A DNA stretch of 64,000 bases from Gemmatimonadaceae bacterium (GTDB lineage: Bacteria; Gemmatimonadota; Gemmatimonadetes; Gemmatimonadales; Gemmatimonadaceae): NCBI GenBank assembly GCA_019752115.1, contig JAIEMN010000032.1, positions 62,001 to 126,000 on the forward strand, written 5' to 3'. Each line of letters starts with the position of its first letter. The first letter of the stretch is position 1. Position numbers and translations under genes: made by a program. Shown piece by piece: positions 1,017-64,000 of the stretch. The notes under the pieces are model-generated. The model saw nothing but the letters and a program-made list of their open reading frames with translations. It was not told the origin of the DNA and made no database searches.

Positions 1017-1044
1017 CGGCAGGCGGCTGGTGGGCGTCGGCGCG

Positions 1045-46226: not shown

Positions 46227-47146
46227 TACGCCGCCGCGCCGTCAGCCGGTCGATGCCACAGACGCTCGAACAGCTGCGCCGAGAACGGCGCCTCCGTCCG
46301 CGGCACCCGCGGGCCCATGCCGCGCACCGCTTCCAGGTACAGCTGCGCGTGGCGGATCAGGCGGCCGACGGGCAACGGCTGTCCGCCCGTGACGACGGTG
46401 TCGATGTAGAGGCGCCAGCGCGGCATAGTCAACACATCGACGTGCTCCTTCCATCGCGGGAACCACGTGAGATAGATGTCGGGCGCCAGCGCGGGCGGCA
46501 CGAGCCCGATCTCCTCGATCAGGGGCCACCGGTGTCCGCGTTCGGCATGCTGATCCACGATCCGACGGAACGAGGGGGCTCCAACGGCGAGCACGCCGAC
46601 GCCGCGCTCCATTCCACCGGCCTCGGTCCCTCCTTTCCGCCGATCCGCGAGTGCGGCTTCGGTGATGACATCGCGAATGACGGTCATACCGGCATCGGTG
46701 ATGTACTCCCCCTCCTCGACGAGCAGCGCCACCACGTTCTGCTCGAGGCAGGTGGAGACGATCTCGCTCAGCAGTTGCGCGTCCGTCTTGCGCCCACCAC
46801 GCATGCGCATGTGCGGGGGCGCACCACGCAGCGCCGTCAGGATTGCGATCAGACAGTCGCGTTCACTGTGCGCCTTCAGTCGCCCGACGAGCACGATGCG
46901 CTGGGGCACGTGTCCCGGGGTCGCGAGTTGCTGCTGGAGCTGCTCTGCATCCCATTCGTCGATGACGCGCTCCAAGCTGAACGTCTTGCCGGCGCTCTTC
47001 TGGGCCACCACCGCAATCGCGGCACGGCTGGAGATCGCGAGTTCCAACATCTTCCGCATGAGGGTCTTCGCGTCCACCGCCGGGATGATCGGGAAGCCGC
47101 CGTCCCGTTCGGTGTCTTCGTTCAGAGTAGGCATCGTCGTTGTCAT
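46226..47146 (-). CDS. TnsC/TniB-like AAA+ transposition ATPase
   Basis: 306 residues. Walker A is AQKSAGKT with Lys54, in the [AG]xxxxGKT form. The Walker B region reads NVVALLVEEGEYI, so a Glu takes the place of the usual Asp. Sensor regions follow (VGVLAVGAPSF). TnsC-type proteins bind DNA as ATP-driven filaments and carry the target signal to the transposase. Position between the TnsB-like transposase and a third factor matches Tn7 and Tn5053 operons. The gap to the transposase gene is 61 bases. Confidence 0.8.
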   Translation of the reverse strand: MTTTMPTLNEDTERDGGFPIIPAVDAKTLMRKMLELAISSRAAIAVVAQKSAGKTFSLERVIDEWDAEQLQQQLATPGHVPQRIVLVGRLKAHSERDCLIAILTALRGAPPHMRMRGGRKTDAQLLSEIVSTCLEQNVVALLVEEGEYITDAGMTVIRDVITEAALADRRKGGTEAGGMERGVGVLAVGAPSFRRIVDQHAERGHRWPLIEEIGLVPPALAPDIYLTWFPRWKEHVDVLTMPRWRLYIDTVVTGGQPLPVGRLIRHAQLYLEAVRGMGPRVPRTEAPFSAQLFERLWHRPADGAAA

Positions 47147-47207
47147 GGGGGTGCTCGGGTTCGGGGGTTCAGGGGTTCAGGGGGTCAGGTGCTGCAGGGC
47201 ATGGCGA

Positions 47208-49367: not shown

Positions 49368-49455
49368 GGCTCGTTCACTCGCGGCGCCCGCGATTCACCT
49401 GCAGGCGAGCAGGCTTCACCGGGCTTCTGAGCCGCAGCGTAGAGCGTGATGGGCA

Positions 49456-49489
49456 CGCGCCAAGGGCAGCCTGCCCTAGTTTTGGCGCG
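49456..49489. repeat. Nested inverted repeat upstream of tnsB-like gene
   Basis: CGCGCCAA (49456-49463) pairs with TTGGCGCG (49482-49489), and GGGCAG pairs with CTGCCC inside. It lies about 90 bases before the transposase start, where a promoter operator or end-binding site would be expected. Confidence 0.55.
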
Positions 49490-49774
49490 CGAGAAGGCGC
49501 CTGCGCGGCACGGCGGAATCGAGAGCGGGCGGACACGGGCAACCTCGGGGGGGGAGGCCAAACGCGGTCACTCGGCGCGACCAACGTGAACGTCGACCAA
49601 CACGGTTCGCTCACCGTCCCCTCGAGACCCACCACCCCGGCCGGACCAGAGCCCGGCAGGCGCCCGCGAACGGACGCCCGCGCGTGGGCCGACCTCGGGG
49701 GGGCAGCCCAGCGTGGATCACGGTGTCGTGGCCCCGACACCGCCGTTGCTGGCGGCGCGGCAAACGAGCACGCG

Positions 49775-49796
49775 GTTCGGGTGGACATACCCGAAC
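49775..49796. repeat. Inverted repeat GTTCGGGT-6-ACCCGAAC
   Basis: Perfect 8-base arms at 49775-49782 and 49789-49796, in non-coding DNA between the transposase and a small gene. It could be a protein-binding site. Confidence 0.45.
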
Positions 49797-49921
49797 AGAA
49801 GCCGAAGTACGCCAGCCCGGAGACGGCCGTCAAGCGGACTCTTCGGTGCGCGTTCGGTGTTGGGAGAGCGGGGGTGCCGCGAGGTTTCTCGCGTGACCCT
49901 GCACGCTTCGGCCGCGATCCT

Positions 49922-50131
49922 ATGAGCGGCTCGCCTCGAAAGCACCTGCGCCGGGCCGATGAGGCGCTCCGGCAGGCGCTGGACACGGCCTCGCGCTACC
50001 CGGAGGCCCGCGCGGAGCTCGTCGCCCAGCTTGGCGAGGAGCGCCTCGCGCAGCTGGAGCGGGCGGCCGCCATCGTGCGGGCGGCGGTGGACGCGCTGGA
50101 GGGCCCGGCGGACGGGAGCCGCGACCGCTGA
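49922..50131 (+). CDS. Small helical hypothetical protein (69 aa)
   Basis: The sequence MSGSPRKHLRRADEALRQAL leads into a second helix (AELVAQLGEERLAQLERAAA). It looks like a genuine helix-turn-helix-like or coiled-coil small protein. It is convergent with the XRE gene 27 bases away. No family recognised. Confidence 0.45.
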   Translation: MSGSPRKHLRRADEALRQALDTASRYPEARAELVAQLGEERLAQLERAAAIVRAAVDALEGPADGSRDR

Positions 50132-50158
50132 GCCTCCGTGGCCAGCGGTACCAGGGGC

Positions 50159-50719
50159 CTACTCGTCGGCGTCGCCGATGGCCGCGCGCACGGCGCGGAC
50201 GCGTTGGGTCTCACGCGGACTTCTGAGCGAGGCCCGCAGCCGACCGTTCCGGGCGTCCTCCCGTTCGGCGGCGAGCTGCGTTGCCGTGACGCCCTGCCGC
50301 GTTCTGGCCCGCTGGACGTCGCGCACCACCGCGTCCATCCCATTCCGCTCCTCGGCGGTCGGCGGTCCCACGATCAGGCTGGCGTCGACCTCGAGGCCGG
50401 CGGCGATGTGGTGCGCCTCGAAGATGGTGAGCGCGCGATTGCCCCGCTCAATCTTCGCCAGCCAGCTCTGGCTGAAGCCCAACCGCCTCGCCAGCTCCAG
50501 CTGGGAGAACTGCTGCGGGCTCTCGGGCGCACGCGCGCGGCCCGTCGGCACGAACGCGAGGCTGGCGGCGCGCGCACGCTCTCGCCGCGCCTCTCGCAGC
50601 GCCTGAATGCGGCGACCGACCAACCAGTCCCAGGCCTTGGCCTCGTCCGCCAGCTTGAGCCACTGCACGACGCGACGGACCTCGTTCGGGTCCGGCCCCG
50701 CCCGCGCCCCCTTGCCCAC
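50159..50719 (-). CDS. XRE-family helix-turn-helix regulator
   Basis: 186 residues. The central HTH is LELARRLGFSQSWLAKIERG (about residues 73-92), typical of Cro/C1 proteins. The flanks are long, Arg-rich helices; they lack a recognised effector domain. It starts at GTG 50719 and is divergent from the RuvC-like/kinase pair, so it may control that pair. Confidence 0.82.
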   Translation of the reverse strand: MGKGARAGPDPNEVRRVVQWLKLADEAKAWDWLVGRRIQALREARRERARAASLAFVPTGRARAPESPQQFSQLELARRLGFSQSWLAKIERGNRALTIFEAHHIAAGLEVDASLIVGPPTAEERNGMDAVVRDVQRARTRQGVTATQLAAEREDARNGRLRASLRSPRETQRVRAVRAAIGDADE

Positions 50720-50895
50720 GCGAGTCCTCCGTTGAGGGATCGTGGGGAGGATCGAGTCGATTTTGGACTATTCCGAATTGGACTTGCCGACGTCCTCGGC
50801 GCCGCGGTGGGCGACGATGGCGAGCAGCGGCGACTACTTTGCTTGTTGATCCAATCTCCGTTGAGCGACGTTTCTGACTTTCATCTTTGCTGCGC

Positions 50896-51447
50896 ATGAT
50901 TGCCCTCGGTCTTCGTGCCCACCCCAAGCACGTCACCTTCGCGGTCGTTGCCAACCCCGAGGCGCCTGTGCTGCAGGCGCTGTCCACGGTGATCCTTCCC
51001 GCCGCCCTGCACGCCCCCGAACAGCTGTTCTTCGTGCGCACGACGCTCCTCGATCTCATCCGGGAGTACCACGTGACCAGCGCCGGGGTGCGGACGACCG
51101 AGCCGATGGCGAAGAGTCCCAACCTCCTGCGGCTGAACATCGAAGGCGTAGTCCAAGAGCTGCTCGGCGCGGGCGCCGTCCCGCGCTACTTCGCCGGTCC
51201 GCTCGCCACCATCGGCCGCTACCTCGGTGTGTCCACCAAGGAGGCGAAGCGCTTCGCCACCGGCGAGGCGCGCGTCGACAGCGTGGAGGGGTGGGCGGAG
51301 CGGTATGACGACGAGCAGCGCGAGGCGATTTTGGCGGCCCTGGCCGCCCTGCGTATCCCACGCTCGCGACTGTCAATGATGACCGATGATGCGCCGGTCG
51401 CTTTGTCGGCAGGTCCTGCCGATCTCGAGGTTCCGCATGCTGATTGA
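50896..51447 (+). CDS. Hypothetical protein, possible RuvC/RNase H fold
   Basis: 183 residues from ATG 50896. The layout suggests the RuvC fold: a first strand (MIALGLRAHPKHVTFAVV), a helix, LLDLIREYHVTSAGVRTTE with E69, then LRLNIEGVVQELLGAGAVPR with E83, and a last helix containing ATIGRYLG. RuvC resolvases have Asp in the first strand, which is absent here, so it may not be an active nuclease. The stop overlaps the kinase start by 11 bases, so the two are coupled. The fold is an inference from pattern only. Confidence 0.6.
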   Translation: MIALGLRAHPKHVTFAVVANPEAPVLQALSTVILPAALHAPEQLFFVRTTLLDLIREYHVTSAGVRTTEPMAKSPNLLRLNIEGVVQELLGAGAVPRYFAGPLATIGRYLGVSTKEAKRFATGEARVDSVEGWAERYDDEQREAILAALAALRIPRSRLSMMTDDAPVALSAGPADLEVPHAD

Positions 51448-52495
51448 GACGGCCGTTCGGTTCGAGCGCCTCCAGAACCTCGACCTGCAAGGCGCCAATT
51501 CGCAGGTCTTCCTGGCCCGGGACCATCAACTGCAGGCGACGCTCGTCGTCAAGGAGATCGAGAAGGCGAAGATCGACGCGGCGCGCTACTTCGACGAGGC
51601 GGCGAAACTCTACGCCGCGCGGCACCCCAATGTGGTCGACGTGCTTTACGCATCGTCCACGGACACGCATGTGTACATCGCGATGCCGCAGTACGCGTGC
51701 TCGATTGAGGCGCTGCTGCGCGACCGCCCGCTGACCGTCCGCGAGGTGGTGCGCGTGGGGATCGGATTCTTGACCGGCCTGCACCACATCCACGTCAAGA
51801 AGCTGGTGCATTTCGACATCAAGCCGTCGAACGTGCTGCTCGACACGGCCGGAAACGCGTCGTTGTCCGACTTTGGCCTGTGCCAGGCGGTCGACGCGGC
51901 GGGATTGGCCACCCCGGCGCAGGTGTACGAGTCCCACGTCGCGCCGGAGTACCTGGTAGCGTCGACCAGCCTGTCGACGGCCGCCGACATCTACCAAGCC
52001 GGACTGACCCTCTACCGGATGTGCACCGGCACGGCGCTCTGGCAGGCCCACCTCAACCAGGTAATCGCTGCGCTGGGGGCGGATCGGTGGCTGGAGGCGG
52101 TGGCTCTCGGGGCATTTCCGTCACGCGACCTGATTCCCCCGCACATCCCGAATCGGCTGCGGGCGGTCATCATGCGCGCGATCCAGCCCAACCCCGACGA
52201 CCGCTTCGGGAGCGTGTTGGAGATGATGAACGAGTTGGCCCAGGTCGACGAGGCGCTCGACTGGCAGTTCACGCCGATGGCGGAGGACCTCCGGTGGGAG
52301 TTGACCACCGACGCACAACGGTGGACGGTCGAACTCAAGGGGAACGGTCCCCTTGCCGACATCATTGCGAGACGGGAGAATCTGGCCACCGGCAAAGTGA
52401 CAGACTTTCCTTCCCTGAGTCACGCCGGCGTGAAGGGCGCCAAGGTGGTCAAGTATGTGCAGGCGGCGATCCGGGAGTTCACGCCCAGTTCCTGA
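51437..52495 (+). CDS. Serine/threonine protein kinase
   Basis: 352 residues. A eukaryotic-type kinase domain covers residues 8-265. The Gly-rich loop is LQGANSQVFLA, the ATP lysine is K39 in VVKEI, and the catalytic loop is HFDIKPSNVLL with D127 (HFD instead of HRD). The metal-binding Asp is D145 in SDFGL, and an APE-like motif (VAPEYL) follows. The C-terminal 80 residues are a separate small domain. No transmembrane segment or sensor is present. It overlaps the RuvC-like gene, and a phosphoesterase gene of the calcineurin type lies downstream on the other strand. Confidence 0.88.
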   Translation: MLIETAVRFERLQNLDLQGANSQVFLARDHQLQATLVVKEIEKAKIDAARYFDEAAKLYAARHPNVVDVLYASSTDTHVYIAMPQYACSIEALLRDRPLTVREVVRVGIGFLTGLHHIHVKKLVHFDIKPSNVLLDTAGNASLSDFGLCQAVDAAGLATPAQVYESHVAPEYLVASTSLSTAADIYQAGLTLYRMCTGTALWQAHLNQVIAALGADRWLEAVALGAFPSRDLIPPHIPNRLRAVIMRAIQPNPDDRFGSVLEMMNELAQVDEALDWQFTPMAEDLRWELTTDAQRWTVELKGNGPLADIIARRENLATGKVTDFPSLSHAGVKGAKVVKYVQAAIREFTPSS

Positions 52496-52577
52496 TCCGC
52501 CCGCAGTCGGTTGACTTTGTCCGTACAAACACCGAAGATCGAGGTGGCGCCGTCCGGCGCCCAGACGAGAGGTCCCA

Positions 52578-52811
52578 ATGCGAAAAAACACGGCTGGACC
52601 GCAGGGAAGGCCGTCGGGGACGTCGGTGCGCTTGGACGTGGCATCCCCCCTGGTCACCCGTGAGAGCCAGGTGCCGGGGCACGGTGTGCCTCACGATGAG
52701 AAGCTGCGGAAGTCGGGGGCCGCCGACGTGCGCGGAAATGCTGTGGTGGAGCGCGCCGGCGGCGGCTTCATCCGCGTGCTGCCCAAGGACGCGTCGAAGC
52801 GTCACGGGTGA
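52578..52811 (+). CDS. Small hypothetical protein (77 aa)
   Basis: It starts at ATG 52578 after GAGAGG. It is Gly/Arg-rich with a final basic GGGFIRVLPKDASKRHG. The position 82 bases after the kinase suggests the same transcript. No family recognised; it could be non-coding. Confidence 0.4.
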   Translation: MRKNTAGPQGRPSGTSVRLDVASPLVTRESQVPGHGVPHDEKLRKSGAADVRGNAVVERAGGGFIRVLPKDASKRHG

Positions 52812-52859
52812 TCGCTGCGACGTGTGGGCGGGGGGGCCCCTGTTTCCGTCGCGTGCCCG

Positions 52860-53483
52860 TCAGCGGTAGACCCAGTCGAACCGATCTAGCACCACCACGC
52901 GCCCTGCATCGATCCGGCGATGCATGTGGCCGCAGACGAGTTCTGGTCGACCCAAGTGGTCCCAAACGTCTTGGACGATCCCTGCTGAGACTGACGGGGT
53001 TCCGCCGTGCTCGGCGATCACGTCAGCCGGGGGCGTGTGCGTGATCAGAAGGTCGATGTCGCCCGCTTGGAGGGCGAGGAGCGGGGCGGCGTCGGCCCGG
53101 CGGATCGCCTCCTCCTCCGGCCACCAATCCTCACCCGGTACCCAGTACGGGGCGATGTGGTGCGTCTCGGCCCCACCGAGAAAGGCGACCCGGCGACCTG
53201 CGAGGTGCAACACCGTACCCCGGGGGCAGTAGCTGAGCCCTGGGGCGATTTCGGTCGGCGCCGTGAGCCCGCGGGTCGAAGGGAAGTGGTGATGGTTGCC
53301 GTCGATGAAGTAGACGTGACGGGCCAGCCGACGCCATCGCGCCGAGGGCGGGGTACCCGGTGCTCCGCTGAGATACAGGTCGCCGACCTGCACCACGACG
53401 GTGACCTCCGGGGGAAGCTGCTGCTCGACGATCCAGGCGAGGCCGTCAATGTCTTGGTGGATGTCGCCAACGATTGCGAGCAT
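52860..53483 (-). CDS. Calcineurin-like metallophosphoesterase
   Basis: 207 residues with the five family motifs: GDIHQ, GDLY, GNHHH, THTPP and GHMHR. These hold the Asp, Asn and His ligands of the two metals. It hydrolyses phosphate mono- or diesters, with substrates ranging from nucleotides to phosphoproteins. It is the only phosphatase-like gene near the kinase. Its start is close to the repeated operator-like sites at 53527-53609. Confidence 0.9.
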   Translation of the reverse strand: MLAIVGDIHQDIDGLAWIVEQQLPPEVTVVVQVGDLYLSGAPGTPPSARWRRLARHVYFIDGNHHHFPSTRGLTAPTEIAPGLSYCPRGTVLHLAGRRVAFLGGAETHHIAPYWVPGEDWWPEEEAIRRADAAPLLALQAGDIDLLITHTPPADVIAEHGGTPSVSAGIVQDVWDHLGRPELVCGHMHRRIDAGRVVVLDRFDWVYR

Positions 53484-53526
53484 GCGGTGCGGTTTGGGCG
53501 TTGGGCCGCAGGGAGGTTGTCGAAAA

Positions 53527-53609
53527 GGTATAGTGTACTATACACGAAGTGTACTACACCACCCTTGAGGTATACTACACTATCTCTCAGGTATAGTGTA
53601 GTATACACT
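53527..53609. promoter_or_regulatory. AT-rich operator-like array between divergent genes
   Basis: Four related sites share the core TAGTGTA(C/G)TATAC. Site 1 is GGTATAGTGTACTATACAC at 53527-53545, and site 4 (53590-53609) matches it except for one central base. Site 2 (53547-53560) is partial, and site 3 (53569-53584) is in reverse. The sites contain inner dyads. The array lies in very GC-poor DNA between the phosphoesterase (minus) and nucleotidyltransferase (plus) genes. Confidence 0.7.
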
Positions 53610-53679
53610 CAGGCGTAGGGATCCGCGTGATCCCCTGTCGCCGCGTCGCTTTCTCGCCCCTTGCCCTCGCCTCCTGAGT

Positions 53680-54372
53680 ATGCGCCCCCCGGCTCGAAGC
53701 TTTCTCCGAACCCCCCTCGACCACGTGCTGGGCACGGTCGCGGCCGTGCGGGTCCTGCGGAGCCTCGTCGCGAGTGACGCGCCGACCACGCAGAGCACGC
53801 TCATGCGTGAAACGCATCTGACCCGGAAGTCGGTGCGTCACACCGTGGATCATCTCGTCTCGGCCGGCGTGCTCCAGCTGGTCGGCGACCCTGGAGCCCA
53901 CCTGTACGCTCTGGAAACCTCCCATCCGCTGGTCCCGGCCATCCAGACCCTTTTCGCGGCGGAGCGGTCGCGACTCCCCCAGCTCTCCGAAGCGATCCGG
54001 GCGCTCGCGGCGGAGCACGTGCCGCCGGTGATGGGCGCGTGGCTGTATGGCAGCGTGGCGCGGGGTGACGACGACCTCACGAGCGACCTCGACCTCGCGC
54101 TGGTGGTAGACACCGCGGAAGCCAATGCCGCGACGGAAGCCCTACGGCGCGACCTGCACCGACTGGGCGACGCGCAGCATGTCCCGATCAACGTGATCGC
54201 CTTCAGTCCCGCGGAACTGCTCGCGCTTCCTGACATCAACCCTGGGTTCTGGGACAATCTCCGGGAGGACGCTCGCGTGCTGCACGGCAGTGATCCAGAC
54301 AGCGTTGCGCTTCGCCTTCGGCGCGTGCTGAAGGCCGAGGCGACGACGACGACGGAGGCGGACCATGGTTAG
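53680..54372 (+). CDS. Winged-helix nucleotidyltransferase (MNT-like)
   Basis: 230 residues. The first 90 residues contain a winged helix-turn-helix (MRETHLTRKSVRHTVDHLVS). A minimal nucleotidyltransferase follows: G124-S125 in YGSVARGDDDLTSDLDLALV, which gives the GSxxRG and DxD catalytic site. MNT proteins paired with HEPN proteins act as antitoxins, some by adding AMP to the toxin. Its DNA-binding part may bind the operator array just upstream. It overlaps the next gene by 8 bases. Confidence 0.85.
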   Translation: MRPPARSFLRTPLDHVLGTVAAVRVLRSLVASDAPTTQSTLMRETHLTRKSVRHTVDHLVSAGVLQLVGDPGAHLYALETSHPLVPAIQTLFAAERSRLPQLSEAIRALAAEHVPPVMGAWLYGSVARGDDDLTSDLDLALVVDTAEANAATEALRRDLHRLGDAQHVPINVIAFSPAELLALPDINPGFWDNLREDARVLHGSDPDSVALRLRRVLKAEATTTTEADHG

Positions 54373-54784
54373 ACAGGGGAAGGTCGCCATCGCGGATGGG
54401 CAGGCGTGGGGCTCCCGGCGGCAGGACGCGCAAGCCTTCCGAAAGGCCGCCGAGACCCTCGAAGCCGTGGCCGAAGAGGGCCAGAACTGCAACCCCATCA
54501 TCGTGCTCATCATCCATGCCGCCATAGCGTACGGTGACGCGCTGACCGCCCGCTTCGGTGGGACGGTGAACCGCGGAAATCACGATGACTTATGGCGTCG
54601 GGTGAAGCAGGCCATGAAGGGACGTGCCGACGAGCCCCAGATCTCCCGGCTTAAAGATCTGCTCGGCAACAAAACCGCCTACTCGTACGGCGCCAAGATC
54701 GGTCGGCTCAACGATATGCGGGAGATGCTCAAGCAGCTGAAGCGCTTTGAGCTGTGGGCCGAGGAGCAGCTCACGAGCGGGTAG
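54365..54784 (+). CDS. HEPN-like helical protein, partner of the nucleotidyltransferase
   Basis: 139 residues, all helical. The core helix NPIIVLIIHAAIAYGDALTA resembles HEPN proteins. A histidine follows in NRGNHDDLW, but the usual R-x4-6-H RNase motif is not clear. The position directly after, and overlapping, an MNT-type gene makes a toxin-antitoxin role likely. Whether this one is an active RNase cannot be told. Confidence 0.72.
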   Translation: MVRQGKVAIADGQAWGSRRQDAQAFRKAAETLEAVAEEGQNCNPIIVLIIHAAIAYGDALTARFGGTVNRGNHDDLWRRVKQAMKGRADEPQISRLKDLLGNKTAYSYGAKIGRLNDMREMLKQLKRFELWAEEQLTSG

Positions 54785-54888
54785 GCGCATTGCGCACCAC
54801 CCGCAAGCGTTCGTCGCACCGGCCACTCCCGCCGAGCCCACGGCTGAGGGTAGGGTGATGTCGTCCTCTCCTCAGCGTCTCGCTCACG

Positions 54889-55119
54889 ATGACCTTCGCC
54901 CGCCGCGCGGTTTCCCGTTCCCTCAGCCCGCATGACCGGAACGCGTCGGAGCCGGACACACCGAGCGGGCGCCTACGTTGCGCGCAACGCCAGACGTATT
55001 GGGAACTCCACGCGCGCGTGCTCCTTGGCCAGGCATTGACGGAGGCGGAGCAGCATGAGTTCGTGAAGCTCTCGCCCCTCGTGCGCGGCGGCTGCGCGCT
55101 CTGCGAACCGGCACGCTGA
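54889..55119 (+). CDS. Small cysteine-containing hypothetical protein (76 aa)
   Basis: The C-terminal half reads as protein (RQTYWELHARVLLGQALTEA) and ends with CALC. A third cysteine lies at LRCAQ. It is weakly supported. Confidence 0.35.
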   Translation: MTFARRAVSRSLSPHDRNASEPDTPSGRLRCAQRQTYWELHARVLLGQALTEAEQHEFVKLSPLVRGGCALCEPAR

Positions 55120-55146
55120 ACGATACGACGGCCGCGATTCTTGTTT

Positions 55147-55389
55147 TCAACGCGAGCGGGTCGGGCCGGCGGCGGCGTCCACCGATTTGAGGTAGGCGCG
55201 ACACCATGCCTGGAGTAGCCGGAGACCAGCGGCTTCGGCCGCGGCGATGCTCGTGGTCTTTGAGACCTCGACGGTGATCTGCTGCGGCGCGATGCCGTCG
55301 CCCGAGATCTCGCACATGACCTGATGGCCGGTGAACGTGCTCGTGGACTTCTCGGAAACCCGGATGACACGCGCGCGGGCGGTGAACAT
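55147..55389 (-). CDS. Small hypothetical protein (80 aa)
   Basis: The pattern is beta then helix: ARVIRVSEKSTSTFTGHQVM, QQITVEVSKTTSIAAAEAAG, then LRLLQAWCRAYLKSV. It resembles a small compact domain. It is oriented away from the restriction-modification gene. Family unknown. Confidence 0.55.
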   Translation of the reverse strand: MFTARARVIRVSEKSTSTFTGHQVMCEISGDGIAPQQITVEVSKTTSIAAAEAAGLRLLQAWCRAYLKSVDAAAGPTRSR

Positions 55390-55602
55390 GTGATCTGCCA
55401 GTGAAGGGGCGGAGAGTGCGCCGGCCGGAGAGCCGCTCGACCCTCCAACCGAACGAGATCTTGAACGTTGTGCACGGTAAGAGAAGCTTGCCCCTCGCGC
55501 ACCGTCAGGCCCACGCCGTACCTTGCCACGCGTTCATGAAGCCCCCGAGCCTGATCGCGGCCGTAGGGGCGTCGCCGTCCCGCCCGAGGTGCTGTGTCCA
55601 CA

Positions 55603-58600
55603 ATGCCCGCCCCAATGGCCGCCGTCGCCCCCGAGGTGGCCCTCCGCGCCCTGCGCGACCGCTGGGCCGCCACCAAGGCCGCCGAGCGGGCGAACGCCCA
55701 GTCGTACATCCGCGAACTGTGTGAGGCGTTGGGCGTGCCCGCCCCGATGCCCGCCGGCAGCGGCTACGAGTTCGAGCTCCCGATCAAGCTGGTGACGCGG
55801 GACGGGACCGAGGCGCAGGGCTTCGTGGACTGCTACAAGGCCGGGCACTTCATGCTCGAGGCCAAGGACGTCGACGGCGGGGCATCGGATGTGGCGTTGC
55901 GCCGGGCCTACGGCCAGGCGCGCCAGTACGCCGCCCACGACCCGTCGGGCACCGCCCCGCCGTACCTGCTCGTGCTGGACGTGGCGAAGACGCTGCTGGT
56001 CTACCACCGCTGGGGCGGGACGTACCAAGGCTTCGCGGCCGGCCACCGCATCGATCTGGCCACGCTCGATCAGCGCCGGACCGACATCGAGCTGCTGCGC
56101 GACATCTGGACGGCCCCGGAGAAGCGCGACCCCCGGCAGCACGCGCAGGCCGTGACCAACGACATCGCCGGAAAGCTGGCTACCCTCGCCGCCTCCCTCG
56201 AGGCGCGCGGCTTCGCGTCCGAGCGTGTCGCGAAGTTCCTGATGCGGGTGGTGTTCTCGTGCTTCGCCGAAGACGTCGATCTGCTCCCCCGCGAGGCCTT
56301 CCGGCAGACGGTGCAGCGCGCCGGCGTGGAGGGCGACCCGGTCAAGTTCCAGCGCGCGCTCGAGACCCTGTGGCGCGCCATGGACGAGGGCGGGATGTTC
56401 GGGTTCGAGAGCCTGCTGCGGTTCAACGGGCACTTCTTCAAGGACGCGGAGGCGCTCCCTCTCGAACGCGCCGACATCGCGCTCGTCCTGGAGGCGGCGA
56501 AAGCCGACTGGAAGGACGTCGAGCCGACGATCTTCGGGACCCTGCTGACGCGCGCGCTCGACCCCGTGGAGCGCCACCGCCTGGGCGCGGAGTACACCCC
56601 CCGCGCCTTCATCGAGCGCCTGGTGCGCCCCACCGTCGAGGAGCCCGTGCGCGAGCGCTGGACGGCCGTGCAGGCCGCCGTGCTGCAGCTGCGCGAGTCC
56701 GGGAAGGCCAAGGATCGCGCCACGGCCGAACAGCGCCTGCGCGACTTCCTCGGGTGGATGCAGGGCTTGCGCGTCCTCGACCCCGCCTGTGGATCGGGCA
56801 ACTTCCTCTACGTCACCATGCACGTGCTCAAGGACATTGAGTACGAGGTGGTGCGGGAGCTCGAGGCCCTGACCGGCCACCAGGAGCTCCGTATACAGGA
56901 GATCGGCCCCGCCAACTTCCTCGGCATCGAGGTGAAGCGCTGGGCCCGTGAGGTGGCCGAGCTGACGCTCTGGATCGGCTACCACCAGTTCTGGAAGCGG
57001 CGACACGCTGTCCAGCCGCCGGAGCCGGTCCTGCAGGATACAGGCACGCTGGAGCTCCGGGACGCCGTGCTCGTTTGGGATCGACTAGAGCGCGTGCCCG
57101 AAAAGGACCGCCCCGACCCCACCCCGCGTCTGGTCCATCCCGTCTCCGGCGAGCTCGTGCCCGACCCCGCAGCTCGCCTCGAGTACACGGCCTACGTGGG
57201 CGCCCGCGAAGCGGAGTGGCCCGCCGCCGACTTCATCGTCTCGAACCCACCGTTCCTTGGGCAGTTCCGCCAGCGAGAGGCGCTTGGGGACGGCTACGTC
57301 GAAGCGCTGCGGGCTGCGTATCCGGATGTACCGGATGCCGCAGACTTGGTGATGTACTGGGTCCGCCACGCCATGCGCGCGGTGGCGGAGGGGCAGGCCC
57401 TGCGCGCGGGGCTCATCACCACGCAGTCGGTGACGCAGGTGCAGAACCGGCGTGTGCTGGAGGCGGCGGCGGCGCTCGGCGTCCGCCCGTGCTGGGCCAT
57501 CGCCGATCACTACTGGAACGACAGCCACGAGGACGCACGCGTGCGTGTCGCCATGGTGGTGTTCGCGAAGGAGCCGACGAGTGCGACGCTCGTGACAGTG
57601 GACGGCGAGGCGGCGGTGACTGCCACCCATCGGGTACCGCGACTCAACGCGGACCTGACAGCGCATGCAGATGTCGCATCTGCATCTGGGCGCCCGCTGC
57701 GCTCGAATTTCGGATTGTCCACACGTGGATTTATGCTTGCCGGCGCCGGCTTCGTGCTCGAGAAGCATGAGGGTTCGCTTCTGCGAGCGCAGCCCGAACA
57801 TGATCGGGTGGTAAAGCCGTTCCGGAATGGAAAGGATCTCACCACACGTCCGCGAGAGGTCTTCGTCATTGATTTCGCCGGCAGGGTCGAGGCGGATGCC
57901 AGGACGTTCCCCGTCCTGTTCGACATTGTTCGAGATCGGGTCAAGCCGGAGCGCGACGCCAACAAGGATCAGGCACGCCGCTTGAACTGGTGGAACTTCG
58001 GACGGGCCAACGATCAGTTGCGCGCGGCACTCCGGGCCTTGCCGCGTTACATCGGAACTCCGGAGACAGCCAAGCACAGATTCTTCGTCTTCCTCGACGG
58101 CGAGGTGGCGCCCGACAACTCGGTGGTGTGCATCGGCTCCGCCGATGCCTTCCACCTTGGCGTACTGTCGTCTGCCATTCATGGCGCGTGGGCACTGGCG
58201 GCCGGCAGCCGCCTCGGGATCGACGGCACCCCGCGGTACAACAAGGGGCCGTGCTTCGAGGCGTTCCCATTCCCGGACCCCTCGCCCGCGCTCCGCAGCC
58301 GCATTGCGGACTGCGCGGAGCGGCTTGACCGACACCGGAAAGACGCGCTCGCGCGCAGTGAAAAGGTCGGGATGACGGTGATGTACAACGTCGTGGATCA
58401 GCTCCGCGCCGGCGCCGCGTTGTCGAAGTTGGAGCACGAGGTGCATCGGCTTGCCGCGTGCGGCACGCTGCGCGACCTGCACGACGAGCTCGACGCACTC
58501 GTCGCCGAGGCCTATGGCTGGTCGTGGCCCGAGCCCCCCGCACTGATCCTCGAGCGCCTCGTCGCGCTCCACGACCGTCGGGTCGAGGAAGAGGCGGCCG

Positions 58601-58944
58601 GCAGCGTGCGGTGGCTGCGCCCCGACTACCAGATGCCGCGATTCGGACGCGCCGACGAGGCGGCGGCCGCCGCGCCGACGCTCGGCATTCCGGCGGAGAC
58701 GCCTTCAGCGAAACCGTCGACCGCCTCGGCCGCGGCCACCCCGTGGCCATCCGACGCCGTCGGCCAGATCACGGTCCTGCGGTCCATGGCGGCCACGACC
58801 CCGGTCTCCATCGAGGAGGCCGTGCAGCGCCTCGTCGGCGCCAAACGCGAGATCGTGGGCCGACACCTCGAGACACTGGCTATGCTCGGTGAGGTGCGCG
58901 ACGTGGGCGGCGGGCGGTACGCGGTGGCGGCTGGCAATGCGTAG
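55603..58944 (+). CDS. Single-chain type IIG/IIL-like restriction-modification protein (MmeI-like)
   Basis: About 1113 residues. The N-terminal domain has a PD-(D/E)xK-like nuclease site (D76, then E86-A-K88 in HFMLEAKD). The middle holds a gamma-type adenine methyltransferase: motif I at D393 (LDPACGSGNF) and motif IV at N548 (SNPPF). The C-terminal part is a target-recognition region with a final winged-helix-like segment (EEAVQRLVGAKREIVGRHLE). Such enzymes methylate and cut DNA in one chain. The frame extends to GTG 55594; ATG 55603 is chosen, with GAGG upstream. No separate specificity or nuclease gene is seen. Confidence 0.87.
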   Translation: MPAPMAAVAPEVALRALRDRWAATKAAERANAQSYIRELCEALGVPAPMPAGSGYEFELPIKLVTRDGTEAQGFVDCYKAGHFMLEAKDVDGGASDVALRRAYGQARQYAAHDPSGTAPPYLLVLDVAKTLLVYHRWGGTYQGFAAGHRIDLATLDQRRTDIELLRDIWTAPEKRDPRQHAQAVTNDIAGKLATLAASLEARGFASERVAKFLMRVVFSCFAEDVDLLPREAFRQTVQRAGVEGDPVKFQRALETLWRAMDEGGMFGFESLLRFNGHFFKDAEALPLERADIALVLEAAKADWKDVEPTIFGTLLTRALDPVERHRLGAEYTPRAFIERLVRPTVEEPVRERWTAVQAAVLQLRESGKAKDRATAEQRLRDFLGWMQGLRVLDPACGSGNFLYVTMHVLKDIEYEVVRELEALTGHQELRIQEIGPANFLGIEVKRWAREVAELTLWIGYHQFWKRRHAVQPPEPVLQDTGTLELRDAVLVWDRLERVPEKDRPDPTPRLVHPVSGELVPDPAARLEYTAYVGAREAEWPAADFIVSNPPFLGQFRQREALGDGYVEALRAAYPDVPDAADLVMYWVRHAMRAVAEGQALRAGLITTQSVTQVQNRRVLEAAAALGVRPCWAIADHYWNDSHEDARVRVAMVVFAKEPTSATLVTVDGEAAVTATHRVPRLNADLTAHADVASASGRPLRSNFGLSTRGFMLAGAGFVLEKHEGSLLRAQPEHDRVVKPFRNGKDLTTRPREVFVIDFAGRVEADARTFPVLFDIVRDRVKPERDANKDQARRLNWWNFGRANDQLRAALRALPRYIGTPETAKHRFFVFLDGEVAPDNSVVCIGSADAFHLGVLSSAIHGAWALAAGSRLGIDGTPRYNKGPCFEAFPFPDPSPALRSRIADCAERLDRHRKDALARSEKVGMTVMYNVVDQLRAGAALSKLEHEVHRLAACGTLRDLHDELDALVAEAYGWSWPEPPALILERLVALHDRRVEEEAAGSVRWLRPDYQMPRFGRADEAAAAAPTLGIPAETPSAKPSTASAAATPWPSDAVGQITVLRSMAATTPVSIEEAVQRLVGAKREIVGRHLETLAMLGEVRDVGGGRYAVAAGNA

Positions 58945-58956
58945 GTAGCGCCCGAC

Positions 58957-60111
58957 ATGCCGATGGTCGCCTTCTTCCCTTGGGCGGTTCAAGAAGAAAC
59001 GCTCGTCGTCGGCGAGTTCACCATCGCCCCGTTCGGCGCGGCGGTGCTCCTCATGCCACCAGGGCACGCCACAGCGGTGCGAGAGGTCGTCGCGGCCTAC
59101 GACAAAACAGACGACGACCTCATCGCCCGCGTGCCCATACTGTTCCGCACCGCCACGGGCCCCACGGACGACGTGGCCGACGAGGACGTGGGCGCGCTGT
59201 TTCTCGTCGGCGAGATGGTCGCGTGCGCTGCCCTCGCGTCGCGCCAGTTCTTCATGCACGCGTACTGGAATCGCGACTCCTTCCATTTCGTGGTCCAAGG
59301 GTTCCGGCCTGACCGACCTGGCGGCGCACTGATCACCTCTAGGCGTCGAGATGGCGCTGCGCCGAGCTATGTACCGGCGAAGCACTATCGGGTACCCCGC
59401 CCGTTTCACGTCGGGCAGGGCCGGATGGAGGACCTTGATCGACCGCTTCTCGATGCGCTCGTGGAGGCCCGGGACGATGCCCGAGTCGCCCAACTGCACG
59501 ACGCCGTGCGAGGGTTCAACGCAGCCAACACCGACAGCCCAACCATCAGCCAGGAGACGGAGCTTGTGCTCTTGGTTGGCGCGTACAGTCGGCTCTGCGA
59601 CGTATGGGACAAGGACGGCACCGCCGCAGCTGTCCGCGATCTGCTTGACAGGGCGCCGGCGTGGCCCGGCTCGATGCCGGGCACCAAATGGGAACACGCG
59701 CCTCTGAAAGACCGAATGGCGAAGAGCAGGAATCCGAGCAGGGTCTACGAGTGGATGGCAGACGCGTATCTCCTGCGCGGCCAGTTCGCTCACGGCCGCG
59801 GGCAGTCTCCGTACAAGGGGGCGTGGGGGCTGCGTGATCACCTGTTGCTGGGCACCTACCTCTTCCCGCTGGCGGTGAAGGCGTGGCTTGGCCGCAGCGG
59901 TCGATACACACTCAGCCCGACGGAGCTCATGCGGATTTCGGCCTTCGATGCGCTGTCCTCGTGCGATCACTTCGTCGGCGACGAGGGCGGCGGCGAGGGC
60001 GATGAGCACCGTCGGCCGTCAGACTTCCCGTGGGTGAGGGTGATCCAGTCGATCCCGATCCAACTGTTCGTCTCCGGGCTGATGCCGCCTGCCGCGCATC
60101 GAACTGAGTAG
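58957..60111 (+). CDS. HEPN-motif protein paired with the restriction-modification gene
   Basis: 384 residues. R274-G-Q-F-A-H279 fits the R-x4-H active-site motif of HEPN RNases, set in a helical C-terminal half. The N-terminal 200 residues are beta-rich (EETLVVGEFTIAPFGAAVLL). This two-part layout resembles HEPN proteins used in phage defence. It starts 12 bases after the restriction-modification stop, so they are one operon. Family not recognised by name. Confidence 0.65.
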   Translation: MPMVAFFPWAVQEETLVVGEFTIAPFGAAVLLMPPGHATAVREVVAAYDKTDDDLIARVPILFRTATGPTDDVADEDVGALFLVGEMVACAALASRQFFMHAYWNRDSFHFVVQGFRPDRPGGALITSRRRDGAAPSYVPAKHYRVPRPFHVGQGRMEDLDRPLLDALVEARDDARVAQLHDAVRGFNAANTDSPTISQETELVLLVGAYSRLCDVWDKDGTAAAVRDLLDRAPAWPGSMPGTKWEHAPLKDRMAKSRNPSRVYEWMADAYLLRGQFAHGRGQSPYKGAWGLRDHLLLGTYLFPLAVKAWLGRSGRYTLSPTELMRISAFDALSSCDHFVGDEGGGEGDEHRRPSDFPWVRVIQSIPIQLFVSGLMPPAAHRTE

Positions 60112-60142
60112 GCGCGCGCCACGGCCACCGCCTCGAACGACA

Positions 60143-60171
60143 AAGGGAGGCCCCACGGCGGGGCCTCCCTT
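60143..60171 (+). terminator. Terminator of the restriction-modification operon
   Basis: A perfect 12-base-pair stem (AAGGGAGGCCCC / GGGGCCTCCCTT) with a 5-base loop, 32 bases after the last stop. Confidence 0.75.
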
Positions 60172-60259
60172 CTGTGCTGATGGTGTCAAGGATCGGCAAG
60201 TCAGTTATCTGGCAAGCCGGTAAAGTCCAAACCAAGCCTGACACGGCGTACTAACAAAC

Positions 60260-60289
60260 AGCGGGGCCGGTCTTTCGACTGGCCCCGCT
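60260..60289 (-). terminator. Terminator of the pil operon
   Basis: A 13-base-pair stem (AGCGGGGCCGGTC against GACTGGCCCCGCT, one G-T pair). On the minus strand it is followed by GTTTGTTAG. It is about 85 bases past the pilC stop and very similar to the hairpin at 41718. Confidence 0.7.
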
Positions 60290-60372
60290 CCACTTTACCG
60301 TGCGCCTTTTCCTCCGTTTATGTGGCGCCAAGACGCTCCAAAGCGCCTGCTCCGCCACACCACACCGCGGCG

Positions 60373-61572
60373 CTACTTCACCGCATTCACCATGTCGAAG
60401 ATCGGCAGGTACATCGCCACGATCATGCCGCCTACGACCACGCCGAGGAATACGATCATGACCGGTTCGAGCAGCGAGAGGAGCGCGCTCACGGCGGCGT
60501 CCACTTCGTCATCGTAGAAGTCGGCGATCTTGGTGAGCATTTCGTCCAGACCACCGGTCTGCTCACCGACGGCGATCATGCTGATCACCATGGGCGGGAA
60601 GACTTCGCTCTTCTGGAGCGGGCCGGCGATCGTGTCACCACCGGCAATGCTGGCGCGCGAGCTCATGACGGCGTCCTGCACCACGCGGTTGCCCGACGTA
60701 CGGGCCGTGATCTCGAGGCCGTCGAGGATGCTCACACCCGACGAAATGAGCGTGCCGAGCGTGCGCGTGAAGCGTGAGACCGCCGACTTGCGGAGCACAT
60801 CACCCAGCACCGGCACCTTGAGCAGGAAGCGGTCGATGACCAGCTGCCCCTGCGACGTGCCGTAGTACTGCTTCACCGCGAATGCCGCCCCGGCGCCACC
60901 GGCGATGATCGCCCACCAGTAGCCGTTCACGAAGTGCGACAGCCCGATGACCACCTGCGTGGGGAGCGGAAGCTCCTGGCCGACACTCTGGAACATGCTG
61001 GCGAAGACGGGTATGACCTTCCACAGCAGGATGACCACGCACAACGCGGCCACGCACATGATCACGGTGGGGTAGATCATCGCGCCCTTCACCTTGCGGA
61101 CGAGGGCATCGTTCTTTTCCATGAAGATCGCGAGGCGATTCAGGATGGTATCGAGGATACCGCCCGCCTCACCGGCCGCGACCATGTTCGTGTACAGGTC
61201 GGAAAATGCCTTGGGATGCTTGCGCATCGCGTCGGCCACCGTGTGACCCGACTCGACGTCGAACACGACCTCACGCACCACACTCGCGAGCGTCTTGTTT
61301 TCGGTCTGCTTGGCCAGGATGTCGAGCGCCTGCACGAGCGGCAGGCCGGCGTTGATCATCGTCGAGAACTGCCGCGTGAAAATGACGATGTCGCGCATGC
61401 TGACCGAGCCGCCCATCTTCTTCTTGGGCGTGGACTTCGCCTCGTCGACCTTGACGATCGTCAGGCGCTGCCGGCGCAGCTGGGCCACGGCGTCGTCGCG
61501 ACTGGGCGCGTCGATCGTCGACTGCTTCAGGTCACCGCTGGTGGTCCGGGCCGTATAGGCAAACGTAGGCAT
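60373..61572 (-). CDS. pilC: Type IV pilus inner-membrane platform protein
   Basis: 399 residues with the GspF/PilC duplicated domain and three hydrophobic membrane segments, including IMCVAALCVVILLWKVIPVF and the C-terminal VMIVFLGVVVGGMIVAMYLP. The N-terminus is FAYTARTTSGDL, typical of the family. It links the PilB/PilT motors to the growing pilus. It is the last gene of a pilB-pilT-pilC operon, 27 bases after pilT. Confidence 0.95.
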   Translation of the reverse strand: MPTFAYTARTTSGDLKQSTIDAPSRDDAVAQLRRQRLTIVKVDEAKSTPKKKMGGSVSMRDIVIFTRQFSTMINAGLPLVQALDILAKQTENKTLASVVREVVFDVESGHTVADAMRKHPKAFSDLYTNMVAAGEAGGILDTILNRLAIFMEKNDALVRKVKGAMIYPTVIMCVAALCVVILLWKVIPVFASMFQSVGQELPLPTQVVIGLSHFVNGYWWAIIAGGAGAAFAVKQYYGTSQGQLVIDRFLLKVPVLGDVLRKSAVSRFTRTLGTLISSGVSILDGLEITARTSGNRVVQDAVMSSRASIAGGDTIAGPLQKSEVFPPMVISMIAVGEQTGGLDEMLTKIADFYDDEVDAAVSALLSLLEPVMIVFLGVVVGGMIVAMYLPIFDMVNAVK

Positions 61573-61599
61573 TACCGATCTCCTGGGGGATTGCGATAC

Positions 61600-62766
61600 T
61601 CAGCGTCGGCCGCCCGCCCCAGCCAGCGGGCGATCGGTGGCACGGTTTCCGATCGGCGTCACCGGAGCCCCGTCGTCGGTCGGCGACTTGCCGATCATCC
61701 GCAGGAACTCGTTCGGATCGCCCGCGCACCGGACGCACTCGTCCGCGCTCACCTGGCGCGACACGTACAGCTGGTACAACGCGTCGTTCAGCGTCTGCAT
61801 GCCGAACTTCTTGCCCGACTGCATCAGCGAGTAGATCTGATGCACCTTGTCGTCGCGAATGAGCGCCCGGATCGCCGGCGTCACCACCAGCACCTCGGCG
61901 GCCATTGCGCGGCCGCGCCCCGACATCTTGGGGAGCAGCACCTGCGTCACGATCCCCTCAAGCACGAACGCCAACTGCGCCCGCACCTGGCTCTGCTGAT
62001 GGCTCGGGAAGACGTCGATGATGCGGTTGATCGCCTCGGCGGCGCTGTTCGTGTGCAGCGTGGCCAGCACGAGGTGACCGGTTTCGGCAATCGTGAGCGC
62101 GGCCTGGATGGTCTCCAGGTCGCGCATTTCGCCCACCAGGATCACATCCGGATCTTCACGCAACGCGTACTTGAGCGCCGACGCAAAGCTCTTGGTGTCG
62201 GAGCCGACTTCGCGCTGGTTGATGATGCAGTTGCGGTGCCGGTGGATGAATTCGATCGGGTCTTCCACCGTGATGATGTGCGCGCGCCGCTCGGTGTTGA
62301 TCTTGTCGATCATCGCCGCCAGCGTCGTGCTCTTGCCGGAGCCGGTCGGGCCGGTCACGAGCACGAGGCCACGCGGGCGCTCGGCGAACCCCTTGATCAC
62401 CGCCGGGACCTGCAGCTCCTCGAACGTCTTGATCGTGAAGGGGATGCTTCGGATCACCATGCTCACGCAGCCGCGTTGCTTGAACACATTGCCGCGGAAA
62501 CGGCTCAGGTTCGCGATGCCGAACGAGAAATCGAGCTCGTCCTCCATCTCGAAGCGCTTCTTCTGGTTCTCCGTGAGGACCGAGTACGCCAACTGCAGGG
62601 TGTCGCGCGGCGTCAGGAGATGGTCCACGGTCGAGTTCACCACATCGCCGTCCACGCGCAATTTCGGCCGCTCACCGGCCGTGATGTGCAAGTCGGACGC
62701 CTCCCGCTCGATCATTTCATCGAGGAGGGTGCGGAGCGAGACGGGGGATGGGGCTGGAGGCGTCAT
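61600..62766 (-). CDS. pilT: Type IV pilus retraction ATPase
   Basis: 388 residues. An N-terminal PAS-like domain is followed by a RecA-like core with Walker A (VTGPTGSGKSTT), an Asp box (IITVEDPIEF), Walker B (ILVGEMRDLETIQAAL) and a His box (HLVLATLHTNSA). AIRALIRDDKVHQIYSLMQS is close to the PilT C-terminal segment (the AIRNLIRE motif). It powers pilus retraction and twitching motility. It starts 89 bases after pilB. Confidence 0.95.
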   Translation of the reverse strand: MTPPAPSPVSLRTLLDEMIEREASDLHITAGERPKLRVDGDVVNSTVDHLLTPRDTLQLAYSVLTENQKKRFEMEDELDFSFGIANLSRFRGNVFKQRGCVSMVIRSIPFTIKTFEELQVPAVIKGFAERPRGLVLVTGPTGSGKSTTLAAMIDKINTERRAHIITVEDPIEFIHRHRNCIINQREVGSDTKSFASALKYALREDPDVILVGEMRDLETIQAALTIAETGHLVLATLHTNSAAEAINRIIDVFPSHQQSQVRAQLAFVLEGIVTQVLLPKMSGRGRAMAAEVLVVTPAIRALIRDDKVHQIYSLMQSGKKFGMQTLNDALYQLYVSRQVSADECVRCAGDPNEFLRMIGKSPTDDGAPVTPIGNRATDRPLAGAGGRR

Positions 62767-62855
62767 TGCGTGGGCAGAGCGGAAATGGCGGGGAATGAGC
62801 CCCCCGCGCGCTGGACGAACCGGTGGCGCATGGGAAACGCCACCGTCACAGTTTC

Positions 62856-64000
62856 TTAATTCGACGTTTCACGGATGACCTGATCGAGGGTCGTGACCCC
62901 CTTCAGGACCTTCAGCCAGCCGTCCATGCGGAGGGTCAGCATCCCCTCTTCGATGGCGGCGTTGCGCAGCACCTGCACGTCCGCGTTCTGCATCACCAGC
63001 TTCTTCAGGCTCTGAGTCATGAACATGACCTCATAGAGACCCTGCCGGCCCTTGAGACCGGTCCCGCCACAGGCATCGCAGCCGTAGCCGCGGAAATAGG
63101 GGAGCTCCCCGAAGGTGGTATCGAGCGACAGCTTCTCGAGGAACGGCACGGCTTCCGGCGTCGCCTTGGCCTTGGCGTTGTCGATCGCCTCCTGCGTGAA
63201 ACGCAGCTCCCGCAGCGTGCTCGTGGGCTTCACCTTGGCGCCCGCAAACTCCGCCTCACTCGGCTCGTACTTCACCTTGCACTTCGGGCAGATCCGGCGC
63301 ACGAGGCGTTGCGCCAGAATGAGGTTGAGCGCCGACGCCACGTTGAACGGCTCGAGCCCCATGTCCAGCAAGCGCGTGATGGTCTCGGGCGCGGAGTTCG
63401 TGTGCAGCGTGCTCATGACCATGTGGCCGGTGAGCGCGGCCTTGATGGCAATACCGCCCGTCTCCAGGTCGCGGATCTCACCGACCATGATGACGTTCGG
63501 GTCCTGCCGCAGGAACGCCTTGAGCGCCGCCGCGAAGGTCATGCCGATTTCGCTGCGCACCAGCACCTGATTGATCCCATACAGATTGTACTCGACGGGA
63601 TCTTCGGCGGTCATGATGTTCGTGTCGCCGGTATTGATCTTGGAGAGCGCCGAATAGAGCGTGGTGGTCTTCCCCGAGCCCGTCGGGCCGGTGACGAGCA
63701 CCATGCCGTACGGGTTCGAGATCGCCTCCATGAGCTCCCGCTCGGCGCGCGGCTCGATGCCGAACTTCTCGAGCTCGAGCGTCAGATTGCCCTTGTCGAG
63801 GATTCGGAGCACGACCTTCTCGCCGAACAGCGTGGGCAGCGTGCTCACGCGGAAGTCGACCACCTTGCGGCCAACCTTCAGCTTGATGCGCCCGTCCTGC
63901 GGCACGCGACGCTCGGCGATGTTGAGCGACGCCATGATCTTGAAACGGGAAATGAGCGCCGCGCGCATCTTCATGGGCGGCTTCATCACCTCCTGCAGCG
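62856..64000 (-). CDS. pilB: Type IV pilus extension ATPase, 5' part beyond the window
   Basis: The C-terminal 381 residues are present, and the frame stays open to the window edge, so the gene starts outside. Visible features are Walker A (VTGPTGSGKTTT), an Asp box (TAEDPVEY), Walker B (VIMVGEIRDLETG), and a His box (HMVMSTLHTNSA). The four-cysteine metal site of PilB/GspE is formed by CPKC and CDAC. It drives pilin polymerisation. It is the upstream member of the operon with pilT and pilC. Confidence 0.95.
   Translation of the reverse strand, partial: LQEVMKPPMKMRAALISRFKIMASLNIAERRVPQDGRIKLKVGRKVVDFRVSTLPTLFGEKVVLRILDKGNLTLELEKFGIEPRAERELMEAISNPYGMVLVTGPTGSGKTTTLYSALSKINTGDTNIMTAEDPVEYNLYGINQVLVRSEIGMTFAAALKAFLRQDPNVIMVGEIRDLETGGIAIKAALTGHMVMSTLHTNSAPETITRLLDMGLEPFNVASALNLILAQRLVRRICPKCKVKYEPSEAEFAGAKVKPTSTLRELRFTQEAIDNAKAKATPEAVPFLEKLSLDTTFGELPYFRGYGCDACGGTGLKGRQGLYEVMFMTQSLKKLVMQNADVQVLRNAAIEEGMLTLRMDGWLKVLKGVTTLDQVIRETSN

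Follow-up and report, generated by a model that had tools for sequence, protein, structure and literature searches.

A Type IIL restriction-modification gene followed by a gene for a HEPN-motif protein in a Gemmatimonadaceae genome: a candidate two-gene defence unit

The window analyzed here, a stretch of 64,000 nucleotides from a Gemmatimonadaceae bacterium (GenBank assembly GCA_019752115.1, contig JAIEMN010000032.1, positions 62,001 to 126,000), contains two adjacent open reading frames (ORFs) on the forward strand, the first at 55594 (GTG) or 55603 (ATG) to 58944 and the second at 58957 to 60111. The first encodes a restriction-modification (RM) enzyme, and the second a 384-residue protein with an R-x4-H motif of the kind found in HEPN proteins. 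The locus raises the question of whether the two genes act together, the second product serving as a ribonuclease (RNase) that acts when restriction fails. We consider it an even bet that they do, as a two-gene defence unit in which a Type IIL enzyme is accompanied by an exchangeable HEPN-like RNase accessory that backs up restriction. The features of the locus, all on the forward strand, are as follows.

55594 to 58944, +: MmeI-like Type IIL restriction-modification gene, 1116 amino acids from GTG or 1113 from the ATG at 55603
55828 to 55866, +: PD-(D/E)xK nuclease site D79-x9-E89-A-K91, aligned with D70/E80/K82 of MmeI
56779 to 56805, +: methyltransferase motif I, DPACGSGNF (residues 396–404), inside Pfam MmeI_Mtase (377–664)
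57244 to 57255, +: methyltransferase motif IV, NPPF (residues 551–554), aligned with NPPF of MmeI
57742 to 58278, +: target recognition domain (residues 717–895), Pfam MmeI_TRD at 33.5 bits with a cut-off of 27
58945 to 58956, +: 12-base spacer between the ORFs, read from the sequence
58957 to 60111, +: gene for the 384-residue HEPN-motif protein of an unnamed family, placed by family alignment and without a library match
59776 to 59793, +: codons of R274-G-Q-F-A-H279, the proposed RNase site, invariant in all nine aligned family members
60143 to 60171, +: strong hairpin just 3' of the second ORF, from the RNA fold of 60112–60190

Type IIL enzymes cleave at a fixed distance and methylate one strand only. 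Judged from its sequence, the first gene is an ordinary enzyme of this type (MmeI-like); it was taken as ordinary because MmeI-like matches are common, occurring in 43 of the 395 genomes of the window's phylum at E ≤ 1e-30 and in 60 plasmid records at E ≤ 1e-50. The original prediction of a Type IIG/IIL-like enzyme with nuclease and methyltransferase sites in one chain was borne out. The residues D79/E89/K91 and the motifs DPACGSGNF and NPPF were all located, the latter two being N6-adenine methyltransferase motifs I and IV in the chain that bears the nuclease. The Pfam domains MmeI_N, MmeI_hel, MmeI_Mtase, and MmeI_TRD were matched above cut-off in that same chain, the product covered positions 3–1136 of the 1136 of the PADLOC profile PDLC03627 (REase_MTase_IIG, 1341.5 bits), and a phmmer search aligned it with the MmeI structure 5hr4 (E 2.7e-37). 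Cleavage by MmeI requires D70/E80/K82, according to the available text of PMC4833311. The Pfam domain MmeI_C was unmatched in the product at E up to 1. Because the MmeI-like relative in genome G165 matches it solely below the cut-off (19.5 of 27 bits), the MmeI_C model may be too narrow, and the domain was not taken as defining Type IIL.

The second ORF begins 12 bases after the first, as had been claimed, and contains R274-G-Q-F-A-H279. Its product was unmatched in Pfam, NCBIfam, PADLOC, and PHROGs and, by sequence, in PDB; the N-terminal region of about 190 residues has no known domain, and the C-terminal part is probably helical. Searches with family members gave similar results: none of eight was matched by any PADLOC 2023 model at E up to 1, PHROGs returned four single-member matches, all with E 0.07 or worse, and a profile search of PDB returned one chance-level match (E 0.13). 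The gene was therefore rejected as an already known defence gene listed in PADLOC or NCBIfam under a different name. Relatives of the protein were not confirmed in two scans of genome contigs, and none was found in viral contigs or by tblastn of phages. A profile search of the 395 phylum genomes returned eight family matches, seven of which were kept after G042, whose match (E 9e-4) covers little of a reading frame that shows none of the features of the family, had been excluded before counting. A tblastn search of plasmids added Cupriavidus metallidurans pMOL28 (three records) and two Microvirga plasmids, bringing the family to 10 loci in the phylum genomes and plasmids. One of them, in G165, is a C-terminal fragment (profile positions 273–385) that was counted as a locus and excluded from the nine-member alignment. 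Behind the HEPN-motif gene, both Microvirga plasmids have an alpha/beta hydrolase gene (L005 7983–9964; L004 8001–9955), a possible second partner of the family there.

The case for a HEPN-type RNase comes from the nine-member alignment. Most pairs of members are 14–36% identical, except two close pairs (77 and 86%), and R274 and H279 are among fourteen invariant columns; the original prediction had named their non-conservation as a refutation, which thus does not apply. The R-x4-6-H motif of the HEPN superfamily is present in all nine members; an invariant R-x4..6-H arose in 305 of 20000 trials of column shuffling. The second position of the motif is N in two members, and a G directly follows the H in seven of the nine. 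The local pattern W...RN.LAHG...W...HLLL resembles HEPN motifs. The 384-residue protein is likely a member of the HEPN superfamily, and the motif, the gene arrangement, and precedent indicate that it most likely cleaves RNA. Three results weigh against the assignment. An hhalign comparison with 14 ApeA-type HEPN proteins placed motif on motif, but with E 0.37 and a probability of 0.2 of 100. The HEPN_Apea model matched one of eight family members, at E 0.13, and the other seven were unmatched. Single-sequence AlphaFold models had low confidence, with a mean pLDDT (predicted local distance difference test) of 36.4 for the full protein and 41.9 for residues 160–345; the C-terminal half was mostly helices in these models, which are not trustworthy. 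The profile–profile comparison covered ApeA, and other HEPN families were covered through single-sequence Pfam scans.

The 384-residue family often adjoins restriction systems, and its gene looks like an interchangeable add-on to them. An RM gene or remnant lies within 2 kb in 5 of the 10 family loci, and three RM kinds are represented. The neighbor in the window is the MmeI-like gene. In G368 and G180, close relatives that were treated as one event, a type III-like Mod gene lies divergently upstream of the family member at a distance of about 200 bp, and Mod is followed by MntA-like, HepT-like, and ResIII genes. In G165, the fragment directly adjoins what is left of the same Mod, and an MmeI-like gene comes after about 5 kb. 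The RM neighbor in G065 is an Eco57I-like methyltransferase gene on the opposite strand at a distance of 1.9 kb, split by an apparent insertion sequence. The partner changes even beside the type III-like Mod: next to the Mod orthologues of G406 (88%) and G165 (74%), the divergent slot holds a different gene of about 365 codons, which in G406 has an HNH_5 match below the cut-off, and next to the orthologue of G174 (73%) the slot is without a family member. The type III-like operons themselves (L016 10707–16807 and L014 3264–9345) carry an MntA/HepT-like pair between mod and res.

An association was also observed at the level of whole genomes, for which the 395 genomes were taken as one set for the family, MmeI-like, and HSDR_N tallies. 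An MmeI-like enzyme was found in six of the seven family-bearing genomes, whereas the whole set has it in 43 of 395 (p 8e-6 in a one-sided Fisher test); when the window genome was removed, the values were 5 of 6 and 42 of 394 (p 6e-5). The two genes are unlinked except in the window and in G165. Of the five genomes with both besides that of the window, four have the MmeI-like gene on a different contig or at a distance of hundreds of kb, and one, G165, has it about 5 kb away. The type I R subunit HSDR_N, which served as a control, was found in four of the seven family genomes and in 85 of 395 (p 0.04). Because this control is also raised, general defence load accounts for part of the association with MmeI-like enzymes; the association nevertheless persisted when genomes that have HSDR_N and genomes that lack it were taken separately (p 0.009 and 0.007, respectively). 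The raised control is one of several points that count against reading the association as coupling. The p values ignore relatedness and rest on seven genomes, the MmeI-like match in G178 is borderline (5.2e-31), and the tallies, taken from at most two preselected candidates per genome for MmeI-like enzymes and from at most four for the family, are lower bounds and may be low.

The survey of gene neighborhoods gave a divided answer: the association of the family with restriction systems in general was recovered, both at the loci and, mostly without linkage, in the genomes enriched for MmeI-like enzymes, whereas the exact pair was not recovered elsewhere. The survey comprised 19 other loci of MmeI orthologues from 18 genomes, out of the 43 genomes with a match; the gene of G268 is partial, and the contig of G150 ends soon after the MmeI gene. 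The fetched stretches of the 19 loci were searched in six frames with the profile and by tblastn with the nine members; none contained a family member, and 6 of 6 positive-control loci were recovered. A conserved operon of the MmeI gene and the 384-residue gene was therefore rejected. In G043 (L064), a weak partial match (E 9e-4, 12-bit, without the R-x4-H region) located upstream of the MmeI gene, at about 6.7 kb, was not counted; the matched ORF (473–1387, reverse strand) looks like a gene for a HamA/DUF1837-type defence nuclease. The slot behind MmeI genes is variable, because orthologues carry different genes there. The closest orthologues, in G021 (76%), G006 (74%, with one internal stop), and G009 (73%), are followed by a gene for 257 residues, a convergent gene, and a gene for 462 residues, respectively, which is evidence against a fixed partnership, as is the single occurrence of the exact pair in the 20 MmeI loci that were examined, counting that of the window. 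In G093, the same-strand gene close behind the MmeI-like gene (L067 11316–12293) encodes an Mrr-type nuclease. Other same-strand genes in this position, in G021 (L054 11809–12582), G009 (L055 11540–12928), and G124 (L063 8060–8761), were without Pfam matches.

At the locus itself, a shared transcript would run across the spacer between the two ORFs. The hairpin behind the second ORF may possibly mark its end; the fold has −39.3 kcal/mol and z −2.80. The hairpin lacks a U-run, is therefore not a canonical terminator, and was absent from the terminator-scan list. The promoter scan found nothing promoter-like directly upstream of the MmeI-like gene, which tells against the proposed unit, and an Rfam scan of 48000–64000 gave zero matches at the gathering threshold. 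Beyond the hairpin, a type IV pilus operon occupies the opposite strand, with pilC, pilT, and pilB read from ORFs. Between a conserved gene that ends near 12.9 kb and pilC (60373), that is, at about 13000–60300 of the window, about 47 kb intervenes, compared with about 4 kb in the equivalent region of G005, and because of this difference the pilC flank looks like an insertion hotspot. Ten pilC flanks of the same genus were fetched and nine were readable (5.6–19.5 kb); neither the MmeI-like gene nor the 384-residue gene was found in any of them. Thus, the site of the pair beside pilC varies among relatives. A repeat at about 60254–60288 was rejected as an integration end: it forms a palindromic hairpin, and relatives have comparable hairpins near pilC.

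Further defence-like genes are located upstream of the pair. A helix-turn-helix nucleotidyltransferase gene at 53680–54372 (Pfam Polbeta; PADLOC PDC-M05A, E 3e-14; NCBIfam MntA_antitoxin, E 6e-8, below the cut-off) overlaps by 8 bases a gene for 139 residues without matches, both on the forward strand within 53680–54784. This is probably an MntA-like toxin–antitoxin or defence pair, just upstream of the MmeI-like gene. At 50887–52495 on the forward strand, a serine/threonine protein kinase gene (Pfam Pkinase, E 2e-34), with PADLOC matches to PD-T4-6 and MADS type kinases, overlaps a gene for 186 residues without matches and belongs to the same defence-like stretch. On the reverse strand at 44391–49367, genes for a 719-residue protein (a weak rve_3 match below the cut-off), a 306-residue AAA protein, and a 611-residue protein without matches look like a Tn7/Tn5053-type transposition module.

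How the proposed unit would work can be outlined as follows. The Type IIL enzyme would methylate its own recognition site and cut unmethylated incoming DNA. The 384-residue protein would be a metal-independent RNase, co-transcribed with the enzyme and held back by it in normal cells; once restriction was blocked or overwhelmed, the protein would be released, in the manner of PrrC with its type Ic partner, and would cleave host transfer RNA or other transcripts. Cleavage would halt the growth of the infected cell, an abortive outcome, and the pair could in this way provide a two-layer defence. A broader version, according to which an undescribed HEPN-type RNase family forms an exchangeable add-on for several RM types and, both in cis and in trans, either needs MmeI-like enzymes or guards them, appears improbable to us.

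The strongest competitor, which we consider possible although clearly less probable than the two-gene unit, is that the 384-residue gene is an autonomous HEPN-type abortive-infection gene in a defence island, uncoupled from the MmeI gene. Half of the family loci fit this reading: with five RM protein queries, by which other RM types could be missed, no RM gene was found at G150 and G178 (both contig ends read) or at the three plasmid loci (Cupriavidus and the two Microvirga), a result that also weighs against coupling. The uniqueness of the pair among the MmeI loci, the variable site beside pilC, the defence-like genes just upstream, and the somewhat raised co-occurrence with type I R subunits, as general defence load would give, are also in its favor. 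The 12-base spacing on the same strand, the recurrence of the family beside three RM kinds, and the persistence of the MmeI-like co-occurrence in both type I strata are harder to reconcile with an uncoupled gene.

The remaining alternatives concern what the protein does. It is unlikely, in our estimate, that R-x4-H is non-catalytic and that the protein is a non-nuclease accessory of restriction, such as a regulator, an RNA binder, or a specificity helper. The Pfam scans and the ApeA hhalign comparison gave no significant HEPN family match, the N-terminal half is without an assigned function, and HEPN domains without the motif can be non-catalytic RNA binders (according to the available part of PMC3710099), the fold alone being no proof of activity; however, R and H are invariant although most pairs of members are strongly diverged, which would be unusual for a non-catalytic site. 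Very unlikely is a toxin paired with the nucleotidyltransferase as its antitoxin. The latter resembles MntA-type antitoxins, and HepT toxins are HEPN proteins, but the nucleotidyltransferase gene is about 4.6 kb off, beyond the MmeI gene, and overlaps a neighbor of its own. In addition, the 384-residue protein has no HepT-like Pfam match, and by eye nucleotidyltransferases were seen at other family loci only in G180 and G368, beside their own HepT genes.

If the two-gene unit is real, an RNase family unrecognised by the copies of Pfam, NCBIfam, and PADLOC that were searched would join the HEPN proteins that back up restriction. Its partner would be a single-chain restriction enzyme, and two genes would suffice to test the second-line proposal made in 2013 for RM-linked HEPN proteins, because a two-protein system is simple to rebuild in a laboratory strain. 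The pair was found once, and the RNase activity of the second protein is a prediction.

Coupling of HEPN proteins to RM systems as a second-line defence is already in print, and the present HEPN-motif family with a Type IIL partner was not found in the literature searched. The available part of Anantharaman et al. (2013; PMC3710099) links at least 16 HEPN clades to RM systems and proposes second-line action for them. In the literature searched, mostly excluding subscription papers, no Type IIL or IIG enzyme in an operon with a HEPN gene was found and no name for the pairing, in line with the original prediction, which had not recognised it as a named system. According to the accessible text of PMC11437467, phage Tsatsa has a HEPN gene, phage Riverbug has a Type IIL gene, and the restriction endonuclease and HEPN genes of IN93-like proviruses share a variable region; a Type IIL–HEPN pair was not found in that text.

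The first gene resembles MmeI in having an N-terminal nuclease, helical spacer, methyltransferase, and target recognition domain in this order in one chain, with the D...E-x-K and NPPF motifs. It differs in its length of 1116 residues, compared with the 919-residue MmeI chain, in a longer C-terminal part unmatched by MmeI_C, and in the HEPN-motif gene that comes next in the window. HEPN RNases also lie in the neighborhoods of Dnd phosphorothioate systems, where, in the portion of PMC10853773 at hand, they are suggested to step in once restriction has been counteracted. The likeness is a HEPN protein beside a DNA-modification system, whereas the modification chemistry is another one and the HEPN domain is fused to DndF or encoded nearby. 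The HepT/MntA pairs that G180 and G368 carry in their type III-like operons likewise place a HEPN RNase beside a restriction system; however, HepT of G180 has 114 residues, a Pfam HepT-like match, and its own nucleotidyltransferase neighbor, and the relative of the 384-residue protein lies divergently upstream as a second element. ApeA/BMEI1217, which the available part of PMC3710099 places in RM operons of epsilonproteobacteria, resembles the 384-residue protein in having an R-x4-H motif in its C-terminal part, behind an N-terminal region; its sequence and profile matches to the family were all non-significant. The closest functional precedent for the proposed unit may be PrrC, a HEPN anticodon nuclease with an ATP-binding cassette (ABC) ATPase domain that is silenced by a type Ic RM system and acts as a second line (PMC3710099, available in part). 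A search of the 384-residue protein for the N-terminal ABC ATPase fused to HEPN, as in PrrC/RloC, gave no Pfam match. Both arrangements place an RM enzyme next to a putative RNase able to act on restriction failure, but PrrC combines an ABC ATPase with a type Ic partner, whereas the 384-residue protein, without an ATPase match in Pfam, has a Type IIL enzyme as its neighbor.

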